A stretch of DNA of 64,000 nucleotides, taken from contig JAEUPB010000104.1 in assembly GCA_016789955.1 (NCBI GenBank), positions 1-64,000 on the forward strand. Direction: 5' to 3'. Every line of letters starts with the position of its first letter. The first letter of the stretch is position 1. This stretch comes from Rubrivivax sp. GTDB lineage: Bacteria; Pseudomonadota; Gammaproteobacteria; Burkholderiales; Burkholderiaceae_C. Positions 24,552 through 27,238 of the stretch are shown here, piece by piece. The position numbers and the translations under genes were made by a program. The notes beneath the pieces were generated by a model. The model saw only the letters and a list, made by a program, of their open reading frames with translations, was not told where the DNA came from and searched no databases.

Positions 24552-24565
<14 letters not shown>

Positions 24566-25670
24566 AGCCCGCCCGCAGCCGTCGAAGCTGCTGTCGATGA
24601 CCTCGCCGCTGATCGCGCTGGCCATCACCGTGGTGATCGGCGTGCTGCTGTTCGTGTTCCTCGGCAAGGACCCGGTGCGCGGGCTGCAGGTGTTCTTCGT
24701 CGAGCCGGTTAAGAGCCTCTACGCGCTGTCGGAGCTGTCGATCAAGGCGACGCCGCTGGTGCTGATCGCGCTCGGGCTGGCGGTGTGCTTCCGCTCGAAC
24801 GTGTGGAACATCGGTGCCGAAGGGCAGTTCATCCTGGGCGCGCTGGGCGGCGGCTGGATGGCGATGCAGGCCGGCGAGCCGTGGGTGGCGCCGCTGGGCG
24901 GCGGCATCGTGGTGCTGATCCTGGTGGCCGGCGTGCTCGGCGGCATGCTGTGGGCGGGCATCGTGGCGCTGCTGCGGGACCGCTTCAACGCCAACGAGAT
25001 CCTGGTCAGCCTGATGCTGGTTTACGTGGCCACGCTGCTGCTGTCGTACCTGGTCTACGGGCCGTGGAAGGATCCCAAGGGCTACAACTTCCCGCAGACC
25101 ATCACGTTCCTGGCCGACACGAAGATCCCGCGCCTGACGAGTGGCCTGCGCGCCAACATCGGCTCGCTGATCGCGCTGGCCGCGGTGGCCGGGTTCTGGG
25201 TGTTCCTGTTCCGCAGCTACCGCGGCTTCCAGCTGCAGGTGGGCGGGCTGGCGCCGGCGGCGGCACGCTATGCCGGCTTCTCCTCGCGCGTGGCGCTGTG
25301 GACGGCACTGCTGCTCTCCGGAGGCATGGCGGGCCTGGCGGGTGCACTGGAAGCGGCCGGGCCGCTCGGGCAGCTCACGCCGTACGTGCCGGCCGGCTAC
25401 GGCTTCGCCGCGATCATCGTGGCCTTCGTCGGCCGGCTGCACCCGGTGGGGATCATCTTCTCGGGCGTGCTGATGAGCATGTTCTACATCGGCGGCGAAC
25501 TCGCGCAATCGCGCCTGGGCCTGCCCAAGTCGCTGACCGGCGTGTTCCAGGGGCTGCTGCTGTTCACGCTGCTGGCGTGCGACACGCTGATCCACTACCG
25601 CGTGCGCTGGAAGGGCGCCGCCGTGAAGCCGGCATCCAAGCCCGTGGCGGTGAAGGCGCAGGAGGCTTGA
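24552..25670 (+). CDS. purine/nucleoside ABC transporter permease 1
   Basis: A 372-residue integral membrane protein of the BPD_transp_2 family, partner of the upstream ATPase and of the permease at 26318. It has about nine to ten hydrophobic segments and the family signature NVWNIGAEGQFILGALGG, plus NANEILVSLMLVYVATLL and GYGFAAIIVAFVGRLHPVGI. GGAGG stands 4 nt before the ATG at 24552, inside the end of the ATPase gene. The protein ends with a basic tail (KPASKPVAVKAQEA). Downstream, 647 nt of repeat-filled DNA separate it from the second permease, an unusual gap for this operon type. Confidence 0.93.
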
Positions 25671-25711
25671 GGTGCGGTGCCAAACTCTCGATGCGCCGAT
25701 GCGCGCGGCAA

Positions 25712-25948
25712 GGCTGACGGTGGGCGATTGCGCCCGCGCAGCGGGAGGCGATGCGTGGCGCTACCGCGCCACGTCCCCTGCGGTGCTCGGACTTGCGACC
25801 CCGCCGGGAAACTCGCTCCGCTCACTGCGCTCGCTGTGCTCGAACAATCCCGGCGAGTCAGCTGACGATGCGCGCTGCGCGCGCGGGTCGCAAGTCCTGT
25901 GCTCCTCGGCACCTCCCCATGCGCGCGCGCAATCGCCCACCGTCAGCC
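25712..25948 (+). repeat. long palindromic element, copy 1 (plus orientation)
   Basis: A 237-bp palindromic element in the non-coding gap between the two permease genes. A 22-bp perfect inverted repeat closes it (25712-25733 with 25927-25948). Inside are a small hairpin CGTGGCGC-TACC-GCGCCACG (25754-25773), a 13-bp perfect stem (25789-25801 with 25885-25897) and a core (25810-25861) whose ends pair as ACTCGC/GCGAGT. The core matches copy 2 in 50 of 52 positions in the opposite orientation, yet the closing stems of the two copies are unrelated. No open reading frame in it looks like a protein. Confidence 0.85.
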
Positions 25949-25999
25949 ATGCAGAGACATCTGCGCGGCATCTCGCTTGCACGCCACCTCCTTTCCACC

Positions 26000-26246
26000 A
26001 AGGTCGTGGGCGGAGCCGCGGGCCGGCAGCGCATGGCGCAGCGCCCGAGGAGCACAGGGCGACCGGCCGCGCGCGCAGCGCGCTTCGTGAACTGACTCGC
26101 CGCGATTGTTCGAGCACAGCGAACGCAGTGAGCGGAGCGAGTTCCGCGGCGGGCCGATCGACCGAGCACCACTGGGGAACGTGGCCCACAGGGCCACGCA
26201 CGAGCGGAGCGCTGCGCGGCCGGCCCGCGGCTCCGCCCACGACCTT
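26000..26246 (-). repeat. long palindromic element, copy 2 (minus orientation)
   Basis: The second, inverted member of the same element, 247 bp, separated from copy 1 by 51 nt. It is closed by a 28-bp perfect inverted repeat (26000-26027 with 26219-26246). The small hairpin is GTGGCCC-ACA-GGGCCAC (26181-26197), the inner stem pairs 26057-26068 with 26152-26163 (10 of 12 canonical plus one G-T), and the core is 26092-26143. The order and spacing of all parts match copy 1 to within one or two bases. The remaining gap up to 26317 holds only the GTG-linked ribosome site AGAGGA of the next gene. Confidence 0.85.
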
Positions 26247-26317
26247 GGCGCGCCGGTCTCCGCACGCTGGCGGAACCGACCAACGCACCCACCAACCCGG
26301 CAAGAGGACCCCCTGAC

Positions 26318-27238
26318 GTGGAATCCTTCGCCCTCCTCATCGCCGCCACGCTCAACGCCGGCACCGTGCTGGCGATCGCCGGCCTCGGGTTGCTCATCAA
26401 CGAGCGCGCCGGCATCGTCAACCTCGGGGCCGAGGGGATGATGCTGGTGGCGGCCATCGCCGGCTTCGCCACCGCGGTGGTCACCGGCAACGACTGGATC
26501 GCCTTCGCGGCCGGCGCGGGCGCAGGCGCATTGCTCGCCGCTGCGCTCGGCGTGCTGGTGATCTGGCTCAACACCAACCAGTACGCCACGGGCCTGGCGC
26601 TGAGCCTCTTCGGCACCGGCTTCTCGGCCTTCGCCGGCATCCGCTTCGTGCAGGAGAAGCTCGGGCCGCGGCCGCAGTTCCACATCCCCGTGCTCGGCGA
26701 CATCCCGTTCGTCGGCCCGGCACTGTTCCGCCATCACCCGATGGTGTACCTCGCCATCGCGCTGACCATCTGCATGGGCTGGTTCCTGTACCGCTCGCGT
26801 GCGGGCCTGGTGCTGCGCTCGATCGGCGAGTCGCCGGAGTCGGCGCATGCGCTGGGCTACCCGGTGCGGCGCATCCGGCTGCTGGCGGTGGTCGTGGGCG
26901 GCGCGCTGTGCGGCGTGGCCGGCGCCTACCTGTCGGTGATCTACACGCCGCTGTGGGTCGAGGGCATGGTGGCCGGCAAGGGCTGGATCGCGCTGGCGCT
27001 CACGACGTTCGCCACGTGGCGGCCGGCGCGCGTGCTGCTGGGGGCGTACCTGTTCGGCGGCGTCACGATGCTGCAGTTCCACCTGCAAGGCGAGGGCGTC
27101 GAGATCGCGAGCCAGTTCCTGTCGATGCTGCCCTACGTGGCCACCATCGTCGTGCTGGTGCTGATCTCGCGCAATCCGGCGTGGATCCGCATCAACATGC
27201 CCGCGTCGCTGGGCAAGCCGTTCTTCCCGGGCTCGTGA
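26318..27238 (+). CDS. purine/nucleoside ABC transporter permease 2
   Basis: A 306-residue integral membrane protein, the second permease of the BMP-type importer. About eight hydrophobic segments are visible and the family signature reads INERAGIVNLGAEGMMLVAAIAGF, with GYPVRRIRLLAVVVGGALCGVAGAYLSV and AGKGWIALALTTFATW. It starts with GTG at 26318, 9 nt after AGAGGA. The two permeases form the membrane channel of the importer; the ATPase and first permease are upstream, the lipoprotein is downstream. Why the repeat pair splits the operon here is unknown. Confidence 0.93.
   Translation: MESFALLIAATLNAGTVLAIAGLGLLINERAGIVNLGAEGMMLVAAIAGFATAVVTGNDWIAFAAGAGAGALLAAALGVLVIWLNTNQYATGLALSLFGTGFSAFAGIRFVQEKLGPRPQFHIPVLGDIPFVGPALFRHHPMVYLAIALTICMGWFLYRSRAGLVLRSIGESPESAHALGYPVRRIRLLAVVVGGALCGVAGAYLSVIYTPLWVEGMVAGKGWIALALTTFATWRPARVLLGAYLFGGVTMLQFHLQGEGVEIASQFLSMLPYVATIVVLVLISRNPAWIRINMPASLGKPFFPGS

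Follow-up and report, generated by a model that had tools for sequence, protein, structure and literature searches.

The 647-nt gap that separates two permease genes in the 64,000-nt stretch of Rubrivivax sp. DNA analyzed here (the window) holds one member of a dispersed family of non-coding elements, and we consider it likely, at a probability of roughly 0.6, that this copy is a non-autonomous palindromic mobile DNA element that moves in trans as a folded strand. The unit, as we propose it, is a head-to-head doublet of two ~240-nt modules, each with a nested outer stem, small hairpin, box helix, inner stems, and core. Members of the family are dispersed, keep their pairing by double changes, and stand in head-to-head order; a sister genome lacks the element at some orthologous sites, and at others it alternates with an unrelated palindrome. 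We infer that the form read is a folded single strand and that it is moved by a trans-acting enzyme.

The initial annotation had placed two inverted copies of one element at 25712-26246, and this holds to within a few bases: modules A and B lie in opposite orientation and span 25708-26248. The features, in window positions, are as follows.

24552..25670, + strand: first permease gene, with a permease profile match; flanking, outside the element
25671..25707, no strand: gap left of module A; no CGGCCCGTTGCGGTCGTTC-type terminal repeat found
25708..25952, + strand: module A, whole hairpin unit; outer arms 25708-25748 and 25912-25952, 90% complementary
25751-25913: match of model R2 in module A, E 2.5e-26
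25754..25773, + strand: small hairpin of A, the model's first helix; double changes in 7/7 pairs (alignment A2)
25776..25790, + strand: box 1 of A, pairing antiparallel with box 2
25810..25861, + strand: core of A, identical to the core of B at 50/52 positions
25896..25910, + strand: box 2 of A, partner of box 1
25953..25997, no strand: A-B spacer, 45 nt
25998..26248, - strand: module B, an A-type unit in opposite orientation; outer arms 25998-26042 and 26204-26248, 89% complementary
26040-26201: match of model R2 in module B, E 3.5e-25
26092..26143, - strand: core of B, its complement matching the core of A (50/52)
near 26178-26198: small hairpin of B, the counterpart of that of A
26249..26317, no strand: gap right of module B; no CGGCCCGTTGCGGTCGTTC-type terminal repeat found
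26318..27238, + strand: second permease gene, GTG start, with a permease profile match; flanking, outside the element

The inverted similarity extends beyond the cores, with longer arms (25800-25886 and 26067-26153) identical at 80 of 87 positions. Within 1-kb tiles of the window, the best 52-nt inverted match outside the two element tiles is 39/52, and the median over all tiles is 34. A and B are also the only clear R2 matches in the whole window, the next having an E value of 0.19. Compared to shuffled sequences, the segment 25700-26255 folds with z -15.1 as DNA and z -15.3 as RNA, with 0/100 shuffles as good in each case. Mismatches and bulges fall at regular places in the box 1/box 2 helix of A, and the A-B spacer has a length of 43 nt in locus L092. 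The region had been described as encoding no visible protein. A 214-aa GTG frame is in fact open across the whole gap (25672-26316, + strand), but high G+C probably explains it, because copies differ in box-to-box length by non-multiples of three and because the observed constraint acts on base pairs.

A core search of the genome and its relatives, proposed in the initial annotation as a check for further copies, found many. The 5.26-Mb draft of this genome has at least 15 strong places for a 93-nt core (E at most 8.9e-13; 40 of 119 candidates scored), several of them at contig ends, as expected of a repeat that breaks assembly. By BLAST, module A is matched in 28 of 37 genomes of the genus and in one of 24 others (E 6e-4). 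Model R1 matches at least 32 of 41 genus genomes, with up to 27 matches in one, and at least 84 of 399 genomes of the order, in 43 of 159 genera; these counts are lower bounds, with few candidates scored per genome. The broader model R2 matches 18 of 398 genomes of the phylum at E 1e-5, including five outside the order and within the class. Weaker R1 matches are shorter, and those inspected keep the small hairpin, boxes, and core. We located 100 copies in 76 loci, of which 79 were anchored on both boxes and 21 were not; from the 79, five were skipped for length, and 52 were left after removal of similar ones. Distant copies (L283, L284, and L287-L291) carry AAAGAAAG/CTTTCTTT palindromic arms on their flanks. 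The window unit matches no plasmid or phage. Units of two relatives match five plasmid records (Comamonas, a 2.5-Mb Variovorax replicon, and three short Pasteurella matches) and no phage.

Among 54 loci selected for holding a doublet, the modules run + then - in all 54, with a median of 120 nt between matches. Other loci include exceptions in orientation (L288, - then +; L295, + + -; L212, + - -), and single modules occur too. Arm types I and II are clearly paired in 17 of 24 doublets of a Piscinibacter-type group, where most of the remainder are left unclassified by the arm-type rule, and in 8 of 19 doublets of the window's own genus. In G017 units, a hairpin of another kind adjoins an A-type module. 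Core likeness within units is 0.80 versus 0.70 in the own genus (p 0.0005) and 0.774 versus 0.828 in the Piscinibacter-type group (p 0.999), a comparison of A and B cores for concerted evolution that is confounded by relatedness and by the two module types.

The stems differ in sequence among copies yet remain complementary. In a sequence-only alignment (A1, 52 copies), 36 of 44 consensus pairs show compensated changes. The corresponding figures from alignment A2 (76 copies) carry the limit that it was fitted to the structure: double changes in 43/44 pairs, 95.3% of cells paired, and a covariation score of 0.561 versus 0.147 in shuffles, with slid controls also far lower. In A2, 768 cells have changes on both sides. 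Such compensatory changes are equally expected of structured RNA and of DNA palindromes, and template-switching palindrome correction could be an alternative source of double changes, which our analysis does not separate from selection.

Selection on a folded RNA should make wobble pairs commoner on one strand, so we counted mismatches in the outer stems. On the AACTCGCT strand, there are 44 G.T and 112 A.C mismatches before grouping (71 copies), a skew to be expected if the opposite strand folded as RNA or DNA. After similar arms are grouped, the counts are 39.5 and 55.7 (38 groups), and the skew is 21 versus 10 groups (p 0.07). The stems show no clear RNA signature on either strand. Complementary stems with no clear wobble excess are better explained by DNA hairpins than by RNA. 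Rfam gave no match to the window region up to E 1 and none to 10 other loci at gathering scores.

These results bear on the proposal that the gap holds a structured RNA or regulatory hairpin selected at operon junctions, where it would set, for example, the expression ratio of two permeases. We regard this as quite improbable, although the very strong covariation is what it would lead one to expect, since a clear wobble excess and an Rfam match are both absent. The permease junction itself speaks to the same proposal. As the initial annotation had supposed, genes of this kind normally almost touch: the two genes share a contig in 51 other genomes of the genus, and in 47 of these the gap is at most 15 nt, so that most junctions do without any insert, a point against the regulatory proposal. 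Among the remaining genomes, it is 69 nt in G815, about 249 nt in G026, and about 368 nt in G017. Conservation at the syntenic site was also looked for, as had been suggested: G063 has an A+B doublet at the same junction, G006 has an A module inside which the contig breaks, and most genomes lack the element. The outcome named in the initial annotation as a refutation, with no other copies and an unconserved site, was not observed. Of 80 loci from named genomes, 79 with both permease genes, only L092 and L098 have an element match. Two reading frames beside the element in L098 (1736-2967) resemble what we take to be an IS3-type insertion.

Several kinds of hairpin occupy this junction in different genomes, which favors the regulatory proposal. 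The G026 and G017 inserts resemble, by eye, other hairpin elements and have no R2 match, and an unrelated ~80-nt hairpin of GCCCCCCGAGGGGG type is present in four records (L112, L128, L144, and L168). Of the inserts L349 (G017) and L328 (G026), one has AAAGAAAG arms and the other CGGCCCGTTG-type ends around a AAGTAAAGGAGGAG hairpin.

Outside the window's operon, too, three loci (L178, L193, and L220) have a unit flanked by two ABC permease genes, again in keeping with regulation. The family of the window's permease (PF02653) accounts for 11 of 149 nearest neighbors of units. With a permease profile built for this analysis, the count is 10/149 compared to 4/321 genes of two relatives (p 0.002), and with one neighbor per orthologous site it is 7/146 (p 0.04). 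The enrichment, which is modest and comes from few independent sites, is also compatible with regulation at such junctions. It is suggestive either of preferential insertion there or of transporter operons making use of the element.

Evidence of movement comes from a comparison of ten sites in two genomes from the same genus, G304 and G826. Sister genomes differ in presence at most of these sites, which argues further against selection for a regulatory hairpin. Five sites are empty in the sister genome (L307, L272, L275, L386, and L428), with original gaps of 1, 37, 6, 7, and 3 nt, respectively, between tandem genes. L307 was chosen for its close genes; when it is left aside, three of four sites are in tandem gaps no longer than 20 nt. 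Counted per nucleotide, this preference is strong, as such gaps make up 837 of 24,822 intergenic positions (p 1.5e-4); counted per junction, it is unremarkable, as they make up 124 of 312 (p 0.18). Genes flanking 99 units are tandem in 53 cases, convergent in 17, and divergent in 6, with 23 cut by contig ends; the 312 junctions of the two relatives are tandem in 223, convergent in 46, and divergent in 43. At the empty sites of L272 and L386, some 40-60 nt beyond the terminal repeats are missing too, and the two sides have no clear similarity; plain insertion of a unit does not account for this loss.

A different palindromic family replaces the element at four of the ten sites. At L276, G826 has a palindrome of that family between similar ends, and at L387, L388, and L410 the same replacement is found with the genomes reversed. 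The replacing elements all belong with L403-L407 in a single family that has no R2 match at E 0.1; its members in G304 (L403, L404, L405, and L407) are about 460 bp, palindromic, and have GCGGCCCGTTGC ends. Across 332 kb and 312 junctions of G304 and G826, its only three copies are at compared sites, and the fourth copy, L377, is outside the surveyed 332 kb. Its presence at 4 of 9 sites has P about 1e-6. The tenth site, L409, holds 1.9 kb of other sequence without this family. L404 and L405, at unlinked sites of one genome, are 99.6% identical, which indicates recent movement of the replacing family, and their ends are like the element's. Together, the empty sites and the exchange show that the element moves. 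The alternation could reflect shared hot spots or interior replacement. A broader idea, that folded-DNA elements throughout the class occupy fixed junction slots, with unrelated interiors swapped between similar ends by a shape-reading enzyme that none of them encodes, appears doubtful to us.

Many units are bounded by terminal inverted repeats, among them twelve similar G017 units with repeats around CGGCCCGTTGCGGTCGTTC. These repeats also bound units of the window's own genome, such as one of 634 bp on contig 51, and Piscinibacter-type units have related ends. In the window unit, no terminal repeats were found at up to three mismatches and none that convinced at seven; we propose that they were lost from this copy or that its subfamily lacks them. 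Units at L273, L275, and L307 likewise yielded no such repeats. Terminal repeats with varied interiors would suit an ordinary MITE with DDE-type ends and a transposase from elsewhere, its inner palindromes being passengers corrected by template switching. Double changes far outnumber one-sided ones (the 768 A2 cells), as palindrome correction would give, and a 9-bp overlap at one empty site, the only one, hints at a 9-bp duplication. Still, we judge this account unlikely. Around the terminal repeats of 29 units there is no signal of target duplication (best z 2.5 of 217 tests), and the units at the window, L273, L275, and L307 lack such ends. A long copy with the same ends was not seen among the end pairs formed in G304 and G826 at up to two mismatches, all of which are at most about 690 bp apart; some ends stayed unpaired. 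Nor does template switching by itself explain why boxes, mismatch pattern, and head-to-head order persist across families. Palindromic layers beyond the terminal repeats gave no signal.

For a mover, we looked to the neighboring genes. When 396 ORFs were clustered, 10 representatives sampled from the clusters found in at least three loci included no transposase; they are ABC transporter, dehydrogenase, regulator, permease, hydratase, GGDEF, aminotransferase, and MFS proteins. Similarly, no transposase or mobility family is among the 25 commonest of 177 Pfam families in the 149 nearest neighbors. A REP doublet (REPIN/BIME-like) moved by a RAYT (Y1) transposase would account for inverted extragenic doublets, which REP doublets form according to the sections consulted of PMC2817692, and a Y1 match occurs in 21 of 41 genus genomes, including the high-copy G008, G025, G027, and G035. 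We nevertheless find this reading very improbable. There is no Y1 match in G000 (this genome, an incomplete draft, 79.6% complete), in G017 (94% complete, with a recent expansion), or in the carriers G016 and G062. Inspection of the invariant columns and outer arms revealed no GT(A/G)G head at the module base, and the modules are far larger than REPs. A strict REP/RAYT system is thus not supported, with no Y1 match in G000 or in the copy-expanded G017. Of the three readings that had been left open, namely a MITE-like passenger, a REP-like genomic family, and a structured RNA, what stands is a dispersed non-coding mobile palindromic family. The strict REP reading finds no support, and the RNA reading, though still conceivable, has neither a clear wobble excess nor an Rfam match behind it.

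Under our preferred reading, a non-autonomous element moving as a folded strand, the unit would fold when single-stranded, and an enzyme supplied in trans would recognize the folded shape. The unit would then be inserted between genes, and selection would leave copies in gene junctions. This explanation is weakened by the failure to find an enzyme, by the absence of target duplication in 29 units, and by the flank loss at L272 and L386. Once in place, the element may act as an mRNA hairpin on the second permease gene, an effect made plausible by likeness to ERIC and NEMIS, which, in the sections consulted of PMC2229807, can be cotranscribed and affect mRNA.

If correct, this reading makes the element a common, apparently undescribed part of Burkholderiales and related genomes, with at least 20 copies in some species, that breaks assemblies and occupies operons. 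It would also account for the differing gaps that close relatives show in operons that are otherwise compact. The fact that sister genomes carry unrelated palindromes at the same sites makes it testable how repeats that lack an enzyme spread and whether a mobility enzyme reads folded DNA shape rather than sequence.

We consider the element new in architecture and, judging by our literature search, apparently undescribed. With mosaic MITEs such as TIMEs it shares common terminal repeats and differing interiors. TIMEs have Tn3-type ends and are set beside the element here by description; unlike in TIMEs, whole palindromic interiors alternate at orthologous sites. Box C/intrastrand triplex repeats (PMC4666352) are, like the element, dispersed intergenic repeats able to fold, and the Box C consensus, as given in the sections consulted, is unlike the element's modules or ends. 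The sections consulted of PMC2817692, PMC4666352, PMC2229807, PMC10969869, and PMC2267715 do not describe the element, a term search of the accessible part of PMC3733652 had no matches, and the literature search found no paper with the exact motif.

REPs, REPINs, and BIMEs are closer in that they, too, are extragenic palindromes, often in inverted doublets and in many dispersed copies (PMC2817692, sections consulted). A REP is a short palindrome that has a GT(A/G)G head and an associated Y1 transposase. The element's modules, in contrast, measure about 240 nt, their stems are nested, and inspection showed no head of this kind; two copy-rich genomes have no Y1 match. ERIC and NEMIS/Correia are, like the element, small non-coding extragenic repeats that fold into long hairpins. 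They are single hairpins of about 100-200 bp, whereas the element is a doublet of ~540-630 bp and, unlike them, has a box helix kept by covariation across several bacterial families.
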